From IMG/VR virus record IMGVR_UViG_3300026521_000466, positions 100,798-164,797 of that record: a DNA stretch of 64,000 nt. One strand, given 5' to 3'. Below the pieces are notes generated by a model. The model had not been told where the DNA came from. It saw nothing but the letters and a program-made list of their open reading frames with translations, and searched no databases. Each line of letters opens with the position of its first letter. Positions within the stretch are counted from its first letter, which is position 1. This stretch comes from a virus. The translations under genes and the position numbers were made by a program. Below, piece after piece: positions 3,114 to 63,897 of this stretch.

Positions 3114-3172
3114 CACTACCTCCTAGTAGATTATTAATAGTTATTAAATAACACCTAAAGCCCAATCCACTA

Positions 3173-4187: not shown

Positions 4188-4248
4188 AATTATCTCCTTA
4201 CGATAATAAATAATTAGTATCATAGATACACCTAAGCCTAAACCACTA

Positions 4249-4258
4249 TAATAATATA
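4249..4258 (-). promoter_or_regulatory. Phage promoter core TATATTATTA
   Basis: Minus-strand TATATTATTA is followed by TAGTGG and the best copy of the leader element, TTTAGGCTTAGGTGT. About 60 bases further on is AAGGAG and the ATG at 4187. This is the clearest example of the promoter-leader arrangement. Confidence 0.75.
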
Positions 4259-22877: not shown

Positions 22878-22965
22878 GGTATTCTCCTTTTTTAAATAAA
22901 CTTTATGCTACCTAAGTAGCGCCTCATTCCAGCCGGCCGTGATGAGGTGTTATCCTACATCACTG

Positions 22966-32798: not shown

Positions 32799-32857
32799 AG
32801 TGGTTCCTTCACTGTATAAATTTTAATAGCTATTAAAGCACCTAAACCTAACCACTA

Positions 32858-32867: not shown

Positions 32868-32870
32868 CAA

Positions 32871-33428: not shown

Positions 33429-33487
33429 TTCTTCTCCTTTATTCTTCATAATTAATGTCTATTGACACACCTAAGTATACTCTACAT

Positions 33488-33500
33488 AATAATCATATAT
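33488..33500 (-). promoter_or_regulatory. Variant phage promoter (TATATGATTATTA)
   Basis: A looser form of the promoter core is followed by TGTAGAGTATA and the leader element CTTAGGTGTGTC. It drives the exported protein gene. Confidence 0.5.
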
Positions 33501-40749: not shown

Positions 40750-41162
40750 TATTTTTTATAGAGATTAACATTCTCCAAATTTTTATACAACTTCTCAATA
40801 TGCGCAAGCTCTGAGACTGTTGGATATGAACTAGCATAAATATCCACACACACCCCACACTCTGTAATAATTTCGCGTCGCACGCGCGTGGTGTTGAGGG
40901 ATATTATATTTTCAGGACTAATGTCGTCACCAAATGTACCAAGCACAACAATATTTTTGTTTTTATCAATTTTCATTATAACTGTTACAAATTGCACACC
41001 TGTGGTTGAAACGACTAATTCTTTATCTATAATTACACCACCTGGCTCAACCATAGTTCTCACAGATAAATCTTGCACTAAAAATGTAGACCCTCTCTTT
41101 TTTATATATTTTTTAAACTCGTGACTCCTATATTCTTGCTTATACACATGCTCTATCATCAC
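40749..41162 (-). CDS. Hypothetical protein, 137 aa
   Basis: No family recognised. It is beta-rich (ELVVSTTGVQFVTVIMKIDK) with an N-terminal basic helix. It overlaps the NrdB stop, so it is part of the nrd operon and may modulate the reductase. Confidence 0.6.
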   Translation of the reverse strand: MMIEHVYKQEYRSHEFKKYIKKRGSTFLVQDLSVRTMVEPGGVIIDKELVVSTTGVQFVTVIMKIDKNKNIVVLGTFGDDISPENIISLNTTRVRREIITECGVCVDIYASSYPTVSELAHIEKLYKNLENVNLYKK

Positions 41163-42622
41163 AGCCTCTTTGGAGAAAACTTATACTCTATATCATAATT
41201 GCAATATGCGTCGCCGATAACTGAAAGATGTCTATCGTCCAGTTTAAATGGAGATGTCACTGTAACATAACTATCTAGTGCAGGTATCTCATAAGTATGG
41301 ATCGGCGAACTTAACAACTCGAACCCCTCTAGGTTAAACGTCAATGCAGATACTGTTAGTATACTCTCCTCTTTATTAACAAAGGAAACTATCAGTAATC
41401 TGTCATCGCCTGTGTTGGAAAGCACTGTATCACGCTCTACCAACAGATAGTTGTCAGGAGCAGGCCTCTCATCTCGTATGTCCTCTACGTGATATTCACC
41501 AAGAGCATCCTGATAAAGACAATACTCATTAACAGATTTAATTATAACTCTACCATCTTCAAATTTGAAACCGTAGTCAGAATCAGCAACAACTCCCATA
41601 GAGTAATCTGTAGATTCATCTTCCAAGAACCCGGCCTTTACATCATTAACGCGAGAATAGTGTTTTACCCATTTCATGTTATTATTTATAGCTTCAGGAT
41701 AGAGAATATCAATTCCTGTACCGACACACACCTTATTCGTAAGGTACTTGATATAGTGCTCCAAATTGTTTTCGTTAAGCCCCACTCTATCATTAGTAAG
41801 TAGTATTTTTTTACCCCACTCTGTCTCTAGCTTACATGCATGATCCAGTATCTCTCTGGAATGTTCAATAATACGATTGTTCTTCAGATATGGCCTCTCT
41901 TTAAATGTTGACCTGATCATCTGTCTAAATAGGGCAGTGTGGTTGTTCTCGTCCCTATTGATGTACTTAATCATGTTGGTTGTGCCTGGCATCAACTTAT
42001 TCACAGAAAGAGAATAGAATCCTAGGAATGCACTATTAAAGTAGATAGCTTCCAATGCTTGATTTGCAAACATGGCATAGACAAACGTCTCTTCTGTAAC
42101 GTGCTCCGCTAATGATTCGTAAGTATCAACAATGATGTCATTCTTATGTTTAAGTTCTTGATCTGTAGAGCTCAAAAGATAGATATCATCAGCCGCATCC
42201 CCACATACAGAATCAATAATCCACCCATACGAAAATGCGTGTAATGATTCATCAAAAGCTTGCCTCGTCAACGCATGTGAAATCATAGGGTCTGTAACAT
42301 ATTCAATAATGTTAATAGAAAGATTCTTGGATTGAAAACTATCCATAGAAAATATCTGCGCTAATGATCTATTATAAGAATCTCTGGTCTCATCACTTAG
42401 CTCTTTGTACTGTTTAGCATCTTCTACAAGCGATACTCTTTTAGGAGTCCATTCGCACTCTAACATGCGCTCGAAAGTAGCTTTAGACCACCCATACTTA
42501 ATATCTTTAAAGTTTACGTCACTTGGAGGGTTGCCCCCAAATATCTTTCTCTCCTCAATAGGTTCACTGTCCTCTGATGTTGGATTGTATATGTTCGCCT
42601 TATTTAATACTTTGTATTCCAT
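41159..42622 (-). CDS. nrdB: Ribonucleotide reductase class I small subunit with C-terminal extension
   Basis: All diiron/tyrosyl-radical ligands of NrdB are visible: Asp94 (MDSFQ), Glu125 and His128 with radical Tyr132 (ESLHAFSY), Glu191 (NQALEAIYF), Glu225 and His228 (RDENNH). It converts NDPs to dNDPs together with NrdA. The canonical chain ends near residue 343 (DESTDYSMG). About 144 additional residues, beta-rich and acidic, follow and are not part of standard NrdB. Since the normal NrdB C-terminus docks into NrdA, this extension is unusual. It is preceded by a roughly 140-base leader or small RNA at 42662-42800. Confidence 0.9.
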   Translation of the reverse strand: MEYKVLNKANIYNPTSEDSEPIEERKIFGGNPPSDVNFKDIKYGWSKATFERMLECEWTPKRVSLVEDAKQYKELSDETRDSYNRSLAQIFSMDSFQSKNLSINIIEYVTDPMISHALTRQAFDESLHAFSYGWIIDSVCGDAADDIYLLSSTDQELKHKNDIIVDTYESLAEHVTEETFVYAMFANQALEAIYFNSAFLGFYSLSVNKLMPGTTNMIKYINRDENNHTALFRQMIRSTFKERPYLKNNRIIEHSREILDHACKLETEWGKKILLTNDRVGLNENNLEHYIKYLTNKVCVGTGIDILYPEAINNNMKWVKHYSRVNDVKAGFLEDESTDYSMGVVADSDYGFKFEDGRVIIKSVNEYCLYQDALGEYHVEDIRDERPAPDNYLLVERDTVLSNTGDDRLLIVSFVNKEESILTVSALTFNLEGFELLSSPIHTYEIPALDSYVTVTSPFKLDDRHLSVIGDAYCNYDIEYKFSPKRL

Positions 42623-42661
42623 GTTGTTCCTTTATTTATTTTAGTCAGATAAGAAATTTTA

Positions 42662-42800
42662 AAAAATAAAAAAATGACACCATCCTGGACGGGGATATCC
42701 AGGAGGCATGCATTGATAGATAAATCTCGTGAGCATACCATATTTTGGCTTAGGTGTCTTGTAGCTATGTAAAAGGAGGAAAATAACTACTGGTATGCTC
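42662..42800 (-). ncRNA. Candidate antisense small RNA or nrdB leader RNA
   Basis: A promoter core at 42805 precedes this stretch; no gene lies in it. A 9-bp stem (42792-42800 with 42731-42739) closes a domain that holds an 8-bp hairpin (42783-42790 with 42761-42768). Its 14-nt loop reads TTTCCTCCTTTTAC, a Shine-Dalgarno complement. A single-stranded segment GACACCTAAGCC (42747-42758) is the exact complement of the leader element GGCTTAGGTGT found after several phage promoters. A CCTGGA/TCCAGG hairpin (42684-42703) and U run (42661-42674) resemble a terminator before nrdB. It may act in trans, or regulate nrdB in cis. Confidence 0.5.
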
Positions 42801-42804
42801 ATAT

Positions 42805-42814
42805 CAATAATATA
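42805..42814 (-). promoter_or_regulatory. Phage promoter core TATATTATTG
   Basis: Minus-strand TATATTATTG lies between the nrdA stop and the structured RNA, followed directly by ATATGAGCATACC. It differs from the consensus at the last base. Confidence 0.6.
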
Positions 42815-42828
42815 TAATTAAAAATTTA

Positions 42829-45800
42829 TCATTGGCAACCTGAACAGGTAACAAAGTCATCCTGTGTCAATTCATCTATCTCTTCCGGGGATTTGCCTCT
42901 TGCATAGTAAATGCTTGATACACCTAAGTGTCTTGCATAATGATAGAGAATTCCCAAATCTCTTGTTGAGTTACTAATACCTGTATCTGGGAATAGGTTT
43001 CCGGATGGTGCTTGGTCAATCCATTGCTGCACCACAGCTAGGTTTTGAATAACTTTCATCTGATCTATCTCATATGCTGATTTATAGAACTTGATAGTGT
43101 TGATATTCAGGTCAGGTACCACTGATCTAAATTCACCAACGCTGGTCTTATCAGTATATACTCTTTTAAAGATAGGTTCTATGGACGGAGTAGTATTCGT
43201 GATAACAGCAATATTTGTAGTTGGAGCCACTGCCATAACATAAAGGTTTCTCATGCCTTTACTGGTTTTCTCTCTCAGTTGGTCCCAATCCATACTCCAT
43301 GGTCTATCCACTATCTTCTTGATATTCTCATTGGCAAAATCTACAGGCAATACTCCTTTTTCCCATTCACTGCCTTTGAATCCTGGGGCGACTCCTTTTT
43401 CAACAGCTAGATCGGCTGATGCCTGATATGCATAATAAGATACCCACTCCATAATCTGGTCAATACGTTGAAGTGCCTCTTTTGAACCAAACTCAAGTCC
43501 CTCTTTGGCAAGTAGATGATGCTCGCCCATAACACCAAGACCGATAGCTCTTGTCTTCATTGCATGTCTGAATGCACCGCCAACAGGATAGTAATTTATA
43601 TCGATGATATTATCGAGTGCTCTGATCATAATAGGTACAACTCTCTTAATATCCTCTTCAGTGTTTATCTTGGATATATTTAAAGAAGCAAGAGTACAGA
43701 CGAATATTTCATCATCTTCTATTTTATTCTCTGTGTACCCAATATTCACTCCTTTATAGAAATCATTTGGGGCCAGTTTGCTATATGGCCTTCCACTCTC
43801 TGATATATCACTGCCAAGCTCTTTACCTAAAAGTTTACCTTCCCTGTCATAAACGTATGTATAGAGCTCTCCTGCTTTCGCATACTGGCTTATTTCACAA
43901 CAGAGATTAGAACTATAGATAGTTCCGAGGTGTTTATTCATATGCCTCCTGTTCATCTCATCTTTATCAACGCAGTAAGGCTCACCGGATGTCAATGCTA
44001 TAGACATAATGCTGGTATAGAGATCAGCTGCTTTCACCACCTCTTTACTAATGGAACTTGAACGTTCATAATGTTCATACCTCTCTTTGAATTCATCTCC
44101 ATAGAGATCCAACAGATCGGTAACATCATGCGGATCAAACAGCGTCCATGTTTCATTGTTTCTAACTCTCTCCATGAAGAGTTTGTTCTCCCACATAGCA
44201 ATATTCATATCGTATGCTCTACGTCTTACATCACCTGTAGGTTTATGTAGCTCCAAGAACTCTTTAAAATCTTTGTTCCATGGCTCAAGATAGACTGCTA
44301 TTGCACCCTTTCTTGTATTGTGGGTTAGAAGATATCTATCTTTTCCTTCGTCTACACCAACATGCACGAAATAGTTATTATTATGTTCGATTGTATAGTC
44401 CACAAACACCTCATCACTATCACCACCTACTGTAAATATAACTTTCTCTTCACCAAGATTGGATATTGTAACTTCACCTTCTACCACCTCGTCAGCTCGC
44501 TTATATACAATATTACTATTCTCAACAATCGGAGTAGGATGCCATGCACTGGTAGTATAAGAACCAAGTGTCGTTGTGATTTCAGTTTGTGCTAGGGAAG
44601 GTACTCTTACGGTATGTTTAGAGACTAACTTCCTTACCTCTTTTTTACCAGTCTCATTGTTTAAAGACAACGCTAACATACCAGGTTCAATTTCAGAATG
44701 GTATAGAGGAATATATGTAATTGCACTTTCAATATCATCCATTGCATTTACAATATTGATAAGTTCTTCAATAGTTGGTTTATCTGCATTGTTGATATCT
44801 ATTTTCTCTGTTACTATAGTGAGATTTTTTAGATTGACATTATGGGTATTATTGTCTTTATGATAAACAAGTCCCTTTTCATATCCGAGATAAGTCAATG
44901 CCATAACTGTAGCAATGTAATACTTTTTCTCATCAATGCTTGCAGTCAATACTTTACCGCCTTTTGATAGTTTAGCAGGTACTGTTGCAAGAGTATATCT
45001 ATTTATCATAAGTCCAAACTCATTGATCATATAGTCTTCTAGTCCTTTAACTTTTATATCCGTAAACCCTTTTGGAAGATATCTACCATTAATTGCATTT
45101 GCTAACTCAGGAACATCCGCATCTATGGATCTGCCACATAGATATTTTTCTATCTTAAGCATCTTTTCATTATAATTTTCATCATTTTCATCAAGGATTT
45201 CACTTACTATATCAGATACGTAGTTATCTCTAGCATCGCTATATTTGACATAATATTTTTCTTCCCGCACATTGTATGTCACGCCATCAACTGTGATAGT
45301 ATCAATAATAGCAATACGACTATTACTAGAGACACACCCCAACTGGTCAAACTCTAACTGAATAGCATTCGTTGTAACTGCCAATGGAACAACACCGCCT
45401 GATGCTCCCGGTATACCATCAACTACAGAACCGTCAGTCCTGACAAAACCATCTGACCAACCGATGCCACCACCGAATTTACTAAGTATAGCCATTACAG
45501 TTCTTGAGTGCATGATTCCCTCTGCACTATCATGTGTTACACCGCCATAACAGCTATTCAGCTGACATCTGATACTTCTGGCATTTGCCAGCGTCGGAGT
45601 ACTGTGCATAAAGTTAAACTGAGATACTTCACTATAGTGTTGTTCTGCATAGTGTTCTTTAAGTCCGTCTGGTTCATTCTGCATTAAAACCATTGCTACC
45701 GACATAAAGACGAACTGTGGTAACTCAAAAGGCTCTTCGTTCACAGATTTAATATATCTCTGTCTAAATGTATAAGCACCTACATAACTGAACTGATCAT

Positions 45801-46203
45801 CTCTGTCATGTTTAATAGCTTTTGCCAATCTATCAAGGTCATAGCTCAAAAGAACTTTATCAAAGATGCCGTGTTCAACCCCATACTCTATATACTTTCT
45901 AAACGAAAGACCACCCAATGTTTTAGTAACTTGATGTCTAAGATCATAAAGAAACAATCTCCCTGCTAATACTGCATTGTCAACTGCATCAATATCAATA
46001 TCCAAAACAATGATCATAATCAGTGTTTGATGTATCTGCTCCGTAGTCATACCATCTTTGATATTCTCCATGAACTTTTTCATTATTGATGTCTTATCGA
46101 CATTTAGTTCATTAGAAGCATACTCTAAGAAACCATAGATTTTGTCTATGTTAAATGGTTCTACTCTACCATCCCTCTTTATTACATTGATTTTCTCTTT
46201 CAA
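42829..46203 (-). CDS. nrdA: Ribonucleotide reductase class I large subunit with intein
   Basis: The 1124-residue precursor starts at TTG (46203, AAAGGAC 6 bases upstream). It shows an ATP-cone N-terminus (about 5-90), Cys218 (NSCYGG), the active-site NLCCE (Asn766, Cys768, Glu770), Cys836 (VCTLASLNIS), the Tyr pair 1099-1100 for radical transfer and the C-terminal redox pair in TCSGCQ (1120, 1123). The normal chain is interrupted after FDQLG (289) and resumes at TRKGAIAVYLEPW (630), with a 340-residue intein between. The mature extein would be 784 residues, normal for NrdA. It is transcribed ahead of nrdB and divergent from the lysis cassette. Confidence 0.9.
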   Translation of the reverse strand: MKEKINVIKRDGRVEPFNIDKIYGFLEYASNELNVDKTSIMKKFMENIKDGMTTEQIHQTLIMIIVLDIDIDAVDNAVLAGRLFLYDLRHQVTKTLGGLSFRKYIEYGVEHGIFDKVLLSYDLDRLAKAIKHDRDDQFSYVGAYTFRQRYIKSVNEEPFELPQFVFMSVAMVLMQNEPDGLKEHYAEQHYSEVSQFNFMHSTPTLANARSIRCQLNSCYGGVTHDSAEGIMHSRTVMAILSKFGGGIGWSDGFVRTDGSVVDGIPGASGGVVPLAVTTNAIQLEFDQLGCVSSNSRIAIIDTITVDGVTYNVREEKYYVKYSDARDNYVSDIVSEILDENDENYNEKMLKIEKYLCGRSIDADVPELANAINGRYLPKGFTDIKVKGLEDYMINEFGLMINRYTLATVPAKLSKGGKVLTASIDEKKYYIATVMALTYLGYEKGLVYHKDNNTHNVNLKNLTIVTEKIDINNADKPTIEELINIVNAMDDIESAITYIPLYHSEIEPGMLALSLNNETGKKEVRKLVSKHTVRVPSLAQTEITTTLGSYTTSAWHPTPIVENSNIVYKRADEVVEGEVTISNLGEEKVIFTVGGDSDEVFVDYTIEHNNNYFVHVGVDEGKDRYLLTHNTRKGAIAVYLEPWNKDFKEFLELHKPTGDVRRRAYDMNIAMWENKLFMERVRNNETWTLFDPHDVTDLLDLYGDEFKERYEHYERSSSISKEVVKAADLYTSIMSIALTSGEPYCVDKDEMNRRHMNKHLGTIYSSNLCCEISQYAKAGELYTYVYDREGKLLGKELGSDISESGRPYSKLAPNDFYKGVNIGYTENKIEDDEIFVCTLASLNISKINTEEDIKRVVPIMIRALDNIIDINYYPVGGAFRHAMKTRAIGLGVMGEHHLLAKEGLEFGSKEALQRIDQIMEWVSYYAYQASADLAVEKGVAPGFKGSEWEKGVLPVDFANENIKKIVDRPWSMDWDQLREKTSKGMRNLYVMAVAPTTNIAVITNTTPSIEPIFKRVYTDKTSVGEFRSVVPDLNINTIKFYKSAYEIDQMKVIQNLAVVQQWIDQAPSGNLFPDTGISNSTRDLGILYHYARHLGVSSIYYARGKSPEEIDELTQDDFVTCSGCQ
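44317..45336 (-). mobile_element. Intein with HNH-type homing endonuclease inside nrdA
   Basis: Residues 290-629 of the NrdA precursor begin with Cys (CVSSNSRIAI) and end in THN followed by Thr, the standard splice junctions. The C-terminal block NYFVHVGVDEGKDRYLLTHN matches intein blocks F and G. In the middle, YHKDNNTHNVNLKNLTIVT (447-465) matches the HNH_3 pattern HHxDxxxxNNxxxNLxxV, although the first residue of the usual HH pair is Tyr. The insertion lies in the conserved DQxG segment of the reductase, a known type of intein site. Confidence 0.85.
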
Positions 46204-50758: not shown

Positions 50759-50814
50759 ACCTAACCTCCTTATGACTTTTTAGTTAGCTTTACAGCACCT
50801 AAGCGTATCCATTA

Positions 50815-53935: not shown

Positions 53936-53984
53936 AAAACTCTCCTTTCATTTTATATGTCTCACACCTAAGTAGTGTCTATTA

Positions 53985-54579: not shown

Positions 54580-54620
54580 AATAAAAAAAGATACAGAACC
54601 CTCACTAGAGAGTCCTGTAT
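54580..54620 (-). terminator. Terminator of the large RNA unit
   Basis: ATACAG/CTGTAT outer arms (54591-54596 with 54615-54620), with additional pairing of CCCTC and GAGAG inside, are followed on the minus strand by CTTTTTTTATTTG. Confidence 0.8.
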
Positions 54621-54977
54621 GTATTGTCCATGGGTAGAGATAAATCTCTGTGGAGGAGCATATGTTGCTATACCCTAACTGGTCATCTGCAACGCCGGGC
54701 TCCTCCATCAAAATTTATTAATAGGATGTCCAGAGTCAATTCTCTGGTTAGGCAATTTATATCGCGTGTGCCTTACGGTCACGGGACGCTCCCTGCGAGT
54801 TGGGTTCCTATCTCCCACATCCTTATAACAACCGCTTGTAGCTAGCGGCCATTACCGGCTATTAGTGTATCAGCTACTTTCACTCTGCAACTACTAAACC
54901 GAAGTTTTCAATCACCACTCCACAACATATTAATAAATATGTAATATCTATGTAGTGAAACATCAGTATTTCATCGG

Positions 54978-55025
54978 GCCTCCCGATGGAATCGAACCAT
55001 CTTTGCGATACGACCTTGAGGAGGC
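54978..55025 (-). other. tRNA-like acceptor/T-arm minihelix
   Basis: GCCTCCT (55019-55025) pairs over 7 bases with GGGAGGC (54978-54984), with one G-U pair. A perfect T arm, GATGG-TTCGATT-CCATC, lies between. Only 17 bases fill the place of D and anticodon arms, and no CCA is encoded. It begins 6 bases after the CCA of the neighbouring tRNA. It is either a tRNA remnant with an internal deletion or a retained tRNA mimic. Confidence 0.6.
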
Positions 55026-55031
55026 ATAAAT

Positions 55032-55108
55032 TGGTGGGTTGTCAGAGACTCGAACTCTGGACCGCCCGGTTATGAGCCGGGAGCTCTGACCAACTGAGCT
55101 AACAACCC
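55032..55108 (-). tRNA. tRNA with CAU anticodon (elongator Met, or Ile if modified)
   Basis: A 77-base cloverleaf with a 7-bp acceptor stem beginning GGGTTGT, discriminator A and encoded CCA. D arm AGCTCAGTTGGTCAGAGCT; anticodon stem CCCGG/CCGGG with loop CTCATAA; T loop TTCGAGT. The G1-C72 pair argues against an initiator tRNA. CAU could also be tRNA-Ile2 if C34 is modified to lysidine. It lies inside the large RNA unit, so it is probably cut from that transcript. Confidence 0.95.
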
Positions 55109-55642
55109 AAAAAATAAGAACGGCTGTATTCTCCTAAGTCGGAGGTCACATATACACACCGTCGATGCATATGCCAAGTCATGTATTTAACCTTATAACG
55201 TACCAATCTTCTAACACTCATGACAATATGCGCGATTGGATTATTACGTGCCTCGGGACAACACCAATTGTCCATTACGTACCCTCCGAGTTTTTACCCG
55301 AGAAATCAGGAGGGTTTACGACGCCTAGTGTCATAGATACAATATCTATTATAATCACGAGTTACCTCAATGACCTTTTCGACTACTGAACAACAAGTGT
55401 ATTTCGCCGAACACCAGGAATTTTGCGTGCATCCGCACTACCACGTTTTCACATGGAGGAACTCACGATATCCCAAATGATAAACTTATACACAATGTGA
55501 TTTCGCTTATCATTCCCATAGACTGCTCACCATATCTATATAATAGACTTAGGCTTCTTTGTGTTTTACATATCTCTCCCTATGGCGAGTAGATATAACC
55601 ATTTTAAGTATTGGAACTAAACATACCTACATATGTTCACAT

Positions 55643-55652
55643 TAATAATATA
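55643..55652 (-). promoter_or_regulatory. Phage promoter core TATATTATTA for the large RNA
   Basis: Minus-strand TATATTATTA, then ATGTGAACATATGTAGG, located just after the tail-fibre stop (55680). No gene follows before the terminator at 54580. Confidence 0.7.
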
Positions 55653-55679
55653 CAAATAAAAATATTTGTAAATTAAAAC

Positions 55680-61865: not shown

Positions 61866-61908
61866 TCACTCCTTCTTTTTTATTAGTACACCTAACCAGT
61901 GTCTACAG

Positions 61909-63054: not shown

Positions 63055-63104
63055 TTCAACTCCTTTTATTATATATAACTAATGACACTAAGCTTAAACC
63101 ACTA

Positions 63105-63847: not shown

Positions 63848-63897
63848 GATCACTCCTTTATCTTAATTAATACCGATGACACTAGCCTAATCCATGT

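Follow-up and report, generated by a model that had tools for sequence, protein, structure and literature searches.

Antisense repressor RNAs that silence phage mRNA by base pairing are known from temperate phages, where P22 sar, lambda OOP and the c4 and CI RNAs of P1/P4 have a single target mRNA or a handful of them and are encoded opposite or beside the target. Among bacterial regulators, RNAIII of Staphylococcus aureus has C-rich loops and binds two distant regions of the coa mRNA, thereby arresting translation (PMC2837412), and LhrC of Listeria is a structured RNA with C-rich segments (PMC4132741). For phiKZ, one report describes non-coding RNAs of 100-180 nt with two hairpins, from the PHIKZ298 3'-UTR and the p40 5'-UTR; the PHIKZ298 RNA is ~100 nt long, and the second of its two hairpins may be a terminator (PMC8545117). 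In AR9, the 5'-UTRs of early transcripts contain a conserved motif of unknown function (PMC5312081).

The locus described here is the 206-nt gap between nrdA and nrdB of an uncultured jumbo phage, inside which, on the minus strand, a candidate small RNA of about 140 nt is predicted. Compared by architecture, it resembles the phiKZ RNAs in coming from the same phage family, in being UTR-derived and in having two hairpins of which the second is possibly a terminator; it differs in the genes involved, and the section consulted in the phiKZ report (PMC8545117) gives neither a target nor a complementarity to the phage's own leaders. With RNAIII acting on coa it shares C-rich loops and a two-site contact on one mRNA, the latter as a proposal for the candidate, and no homology is claimed; its predicted unpaired loop of the UCCUCC type would be able to pair with a Shine-Dalgarno (SD) sequence, as in RNAs of the RNAIII/LhrC type. 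RNAIII and LhrC are host regulators, however, whereas the main specificity of the candidate lies in a separate anti-leader segment, directed at an element that many phage mRNAs share. Unlike the classical phage antisense RNAs, it would act in trans on dispersed early mRNAs of a probably lytic jumbo phage. The conserved motif in early 5'-UTRs is a likeness to AR9, a related jumbo phage, but the eight AR9 early leaders that we examined lack the leader GGCTTAGGTGT of the present phage. We know of no RNA antisense to the AR9 early 5'-UTR motif. In the open-access literature searched, no precedent was found for one phage RNA acting against a leader common to dispersed early mRNAs of the same phage; if confirmed, such an arrangement would set the candidate apart from the systems above.

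The analysed window is a stretch of 64 kb, corresponding to positions 100,798-164,797 of a 164.8-kb viral record. Since the window encodes the phage tubulin PhuZ, a nuclear-shell protein, a phiKZ-type RNA polymerase subunit and a phiKZ-type DNA polymerase, the phage was placed within Chimalliviridae. Judged from its sequence, it is an uncultured, nucleus-forming (phiKZ-like) giant phage and a divergent chimallivirus, with a DNA polymerase that has at most about 30% identity to any relative found in GenBank and IMG/VR. Queries with nrdB and the DNA polymerase, together with DNA-pattern scans of viral contigs, found no close relative, and none that carries the RNA or the leader; the pattern scans returned 13 promoter-plus-leader stretches and one anti-SD-plus-anti-leader stretch, all of which look like chance matches. 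A search for relatives among genome contigs found nothing, and blastn against phages yielded short weak matches only. Upstream of the gap lies nrdA (42829..46203, minus strand, stop at 42829) and downstream of it nrdB (41159..42622, minus strand, start at 42622), which itself has no leader element. NrdA is split by an intein carrying an HNH endonuclease domain (phrog_59; window 42829-46203, minus strand).

Minus-strand operons of this phage are preceded by a strong motif, GTATATTATTATAGTGG, which marks early promoters; the record contains 17 copies of its core GTATATTATTA, every one on the minus strand. The motif agrees with the promoters of OBP, N1M2 and AR9 examined here and with the early-promoter consensus sequences published for OBP (KATATTATYWWADTG), N1M2, 201phi2-1 and phiKZ (PMC7058600); a review locates such elements about 10 nt ahead of the point where transcription starts (PMC7598289). 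Often the early promoters precede a leader with the consensus GGCTTAGGTGT(C), also given as GGCUUAGGUGU(C). This leader or a close variant is present on ten early transcripts, about half of some 20, and lies about 8-11 nt past the expected start behind the promoters at 4249, 33488, 50815, 53985, 61909, 3183, 32868, 63115 and 63908 and that of a GroEL gene outside the window. In seven canonical leaders an SD follows 21-36 nt from TTAGGTG. The leaders in the window, all on the minus strand and all predicted targets of the candidate RNA, are GGCTTAGGTGTA (4227..4238; net -14.5 kcal/mol), GCTTTAGGTGTT (3150..3161; -12.5 kcal/mol), GGTTTAGGTGCT (32837..32848; -13.9 kcal/mol), TACTTAGGTGTG, which occurs twice (33466..33477, -8.0 kcal/mol; 53963..53974, -9.1 kcal/mol), CGCTTAGGTGCT (50794..50805; -10.8 kcal/mol), TGGTTAGGTGTA (61887..61898; -6.6 kcal/mol) and the variants AGCTTAGTGTC (63084..63094; -9.2 kcal/mol) and GGCTAGTGTC (63878..63887; -8.0 kcal/mol). 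The leader genes tested in the window are small orphans without a PHROG match, and the genes behind leaderless early promoters include those for RNA polymerase subunits, for the nuclear shell and for a phrog_2943 polymerase. The leader found outside the window is on the early mRNA of a GroEL-like chaperonin gene, named from sequence (minus strand, at about 33,000 of the record). A conserved hairpin within the leader received weak support, one of the ten leaders being clearly better than its shuffles, and the leader is only weakly structured. Besides the AR9 leaders, OBP and N1M2 also lack the leader motif, despite the common promoter type.

The candidate RNA (42661..42801, minus strand) has a predicted MFE of -40.6 to -41.5 kcal/mol (z -4.9), and none of 200 shuffles was equally stable. 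Its predicted architecture is that of a bulged hairpin, in which an 11-bp stem surrounds an 8-bp hairpin; beyond a linker comes a terminator hairpin of 13 bp with its U-tract. The outer stem P1 is formed by 11 perfect pairs between its 5' arm TGAGCATACCA (42791..42801, minus strand) and its 3' arm TGGTATGCTCA (42730..42740, minus strand). Stem P2 (42790-42783 with 42768-42761) closes a loop of 14 nt, TTTCCTCCTTTTAC (42769..42782, minus strand), which is an anti-SD with a predicted mean unpaired probability of 0.91 and an opening cost of 1.4 kcal/mol. On the 3' side only, P1 and P2 are separated by a 20-nt junction (42760-42741) containing the anti-leader GACACCTAAGCC (42747..42758, minus strand), for which the predicted values are 0.85 unpaired and 0.6 kcal/mol. 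The terminator hairpin and its U-tract (42674-42661) occupy 42661..42714 on the minus strand, with the core ATGCCTCCTGGAT..GTCCAGGATGGTGT at 42709-42677. The predicted fold thus has both parts where the earlier note had seen them, an anti-SD in a hairpin loop and a second complement in an unpaired junction. Rfam covariance models gave no match to the candidate RNA at the gathering score, only sub-threshold chance matches. A second antisense copy was sought throughout the 164.8-kb record and rejected, the near-matches being leader complements or, where inspected, open coding frames.

Directly ahead of this fold lies an early-type promoter-like element, ATATATTATTGATATG (42801..42815, minus strand), which ends where P1 begins; transcription from it would be expected to start on the first base of P1 or on a neighbouring one. 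With a PWM built from 17 early promoters, the element reaches rank 31 of ~128,000 at 7.5 bits, far below the strong early promoters but level with the leader-bearing promoter at 33500 (7.7), and the chance of such a score within the 206-nt gap is roughly 2%. Given its weak rank, we regard ATATATTATTGATATG as no more than suggestive of a promoter for the candidate RNA, which may alternatively be a 3'-end product processed from the nrdA mRNA.

The complementarity between junction and leader goes well beyond what randomised sequences provide. Within the window the exact 11-mer GGCTTAGGTGT occurs twice, at 4238-4228 on the minus strand, where it is the leader behind the 4249 promoter, and at 42747-42757 on the plus strand, where it is the complement of the junction; this exact match had been claimed before, as had the matches of 8-9 nt to the leaders after 33488, 50815, 53985 and 61909, which are likewise as described. 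With two mismatches allowed, the 11-mer has 16 matches versus 9.7 (sd 2.8) in shuffles, two of 100 shuffles reaching 16. Against the ten leaders the junction 20-mer has a mean pairing energy of -16.5 kcal/mol, compared with -6.9±1.4 kcal/mol for permuted junctions, all 3000 of which it beats, and -7.3±1.7 kcal/mol for 20-mers sampled from the genome, of which one in 7528 was as good. Net binding amounts to -6.6 to -14.5 kcal/mol for the ten leader mRNAs versus -5.8 to +2.5 for nine leaderless early mRNAs, a split that is partly built in because the leaders were picked by motif; this choice affects the permutation and genome-wide nulls less. The junction/leader pairing is itself a post hoc observation. 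With the leaders' own complements set aside, a filtered search through the 20-mers of the two strands left just two places at the leader-pairing level, the junction itself and one site within nrdA. The latter, the leader-like CACTTAGGTGTA, is part of the nrdA coding sequence (42919-42930, minus strand), precedes the candidate RNA by 160 nt and can pair over 9 nt with the junction at -13.8 kcal/mol. It could sequester the junction in a read-through nrdA mRNA, or the match may reflect merely the codons for HLGV.

The anti-SD loop adds little specificity of its own, because with the loop permuted and the junction kept, total pairing was as good in 62 of 500 trials; the loop pairs with the SDs of leader genes (-7.6 to -13.7) and equally with those of leaderless genes. 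Its placement relative to the anti-leader suits binding at two sites in antiparallel order, as had been proposed, the leader-to-SD offset being 23 in the complement of the RNA and 21-36 in the seven leaders. There are 10 AAGGAGG sequences in both strands of the 64 kb, a rarity that puts the chance of meeting one at leader spacing at about 0.002. Other TTAGGTG sites in the window comprise seven leaders with an SD behind them and five elsewhere, none with an SD. By a rough estimate that allows for some 80 intergenic strands, the probability of anti-leader and anti-SD arising jointly by chance is below 0.001. On the opposite strand, the leader GGCTTAGGTGTC and AAAAGGAGG (42747..42781, plus strand) are neither preceded by an early promoter nor followed by a gene, and a true leader or gene on the plus strand was rejected in view of the missing early promoter, an ORF of 8 codons and an SD spacing of 15 nt.

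The explanation that we favour, tentatively and with slightly more doubt than belief, is that the nrdA-nrdB gap specifies an antisense RNA, about 140 nt long, which acts in trans to shut off the leader-bearing early genes. Computation shows the fold, the open state of loop and junction, a complementarity beyond chance, and the order and spacing of the two complements; from these we infer expression and its timing, pairing in the cell, the sign of the effect and repression as its outcome. The RNA would start at or near 42801 from the weak early-type promoter, or be cut from the 3' end of nrdA, and would end at the terminator (42674-42661). In about ten early mRNAs, its junction GACACCUAAGCC would pair with the GGCUUAGGUGU(C) leader. 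The anti-leader would find the 5' ends of these messages at net energies of -7 to -15 kcal/mol, after which the pyrimidine loop would reach and cover the SD 21-36 nt downstream. This would block ribosome loading or invite RNase III, resulting in a translational block or in decay of the leader mRNAs, and leaderless early genes (RNA polymerase, nuclear shell) would be spared. As it would be produced together with nrdA or by a weak promoter of its own, the RNA could couple DNA-precursor synthesis to early shut-off. The earlier note had spoken of a master repressor of early mRNAs; an exposed anti-leader that pairs beyond chance speaks for the repressor, but "master" is an overstatement, because about half of the early transcripts have the leader and the promoters of the RNA polymerase and nuclear-shell genes come without it. 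The larger picture, in which a jumbo phage tags an early-mRNA regulon with a common leader and later silences the set via one antisense RNA from the nrd operon, sparing RNA polymerase and nuclear-shell genes, is possible but rather unlikely in our judgement. If true, the leader would gain a function, serving as the address tag that a phage RNA recognises, and the whole would constitute a one-to-many antisense circuit. Such a circuit would bear on how early genes of phiKZ-like phages are shut off once the phage nucleus has formed.

Other explanations account for parts of these data. Situated directly between nrdA and nrdB and provided with a good terminator, the element could simply be the nrdA 3'-UTR, its terminator determining the ratio of nrdA to nrdB. 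A stable fragment of this 3'-UTR might also be released, for which the PHIKZ298 3'-UTR RNA of phiKZ would be a precedent (PMC8545117). The leader complement would then be incidental, yet it is exactly the beyond-chance complement to leader and SD at leader spacing that this leaves unexplained, and downstream of the terminator nrdB showed no early promoter of its own; we therefore think this explanation unlikely, if quite conceivable. An inverted copy of a leader and SD stretch, surviving as a DNA remnant without a present RNA function, would fit the plus strand, where leader, a 13-nt spacer and AAAAGGAGG resemble a true leader and TAGCTAT is common to the 32868 leader at a similar place. The likeness is confined to leader and SD, however, and both complements coincide with the unpaired stretches of a minus-strand RNA whose stems are perfect, as would be unlikely for debris, making a mere remnant improbable; an inverted copy may nevertheless have been the origin of a functional antisense.

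The second option of the earlier note, an nrdB attenuator that senses leader mRNAs, supposes that the junction pairs with GGUGUC at the base of the terminator and that leader mRNAs compete for the junction. GACACC and GGUGUC (42681-42676) are indeed exact complements, and the site lies just upstream of nrdB. Against this, the only matching competitor (GGTGTC in the DNA) is locked in the terminator stem, where its opening costs 7.8 kcal/mol versus -8.1 from the 6-bp pairing, and nrdB is without the leader; because the exchange would be about neutral and an RNA of such length should contain a 6-nt match by chance, the attenuator ranks low and we consider it very unlikely. Hardly credible is a small protein encoded by the 47-aa ORF (ATG 42802 to TAA 42659, minus strand), with the complementarity incidental: the frame is open over the entire element, but an open frame this long arises by chance with a probability of a few per cent per frame, and this one has no Shine-Dalgarno, a start codon at the predicted transcript start, final residues derived from the U-tract and, by tblastn in phages, chance-level matches with an E of 1 or worse.

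Some further features of the window concern the early transcripts in general. Directly upstream of the early promoters at 32868, 40662, 50825, 53995, 63115 and 63908 (minus strand) lies TTTTTTCTTTT, apparently the T-run of the preceding operon's terminator, with terminator and early promoter joined end to end. The nuclear-shell gene has an 84-nt 5'-UTR (22878-22961, minus strand) with the hairpin-like stretches CACCTCATC..GAATGAGG and GCTACTTAGGTAGC and no standard leader. Finally, downstream of the early promoter at 55653 there is about 1 kb without an evident ORF (54590-55653, minus strand), which holds a tRNA-Met (55108-55032), the tRNA alone being found by Rfam in this stretch, and which ends in a terminator-like hairpin and T-run near 54590; it is possibly a large non-coding RNA, with a placement reminiscent of GOLLD or ROOL RNAs.
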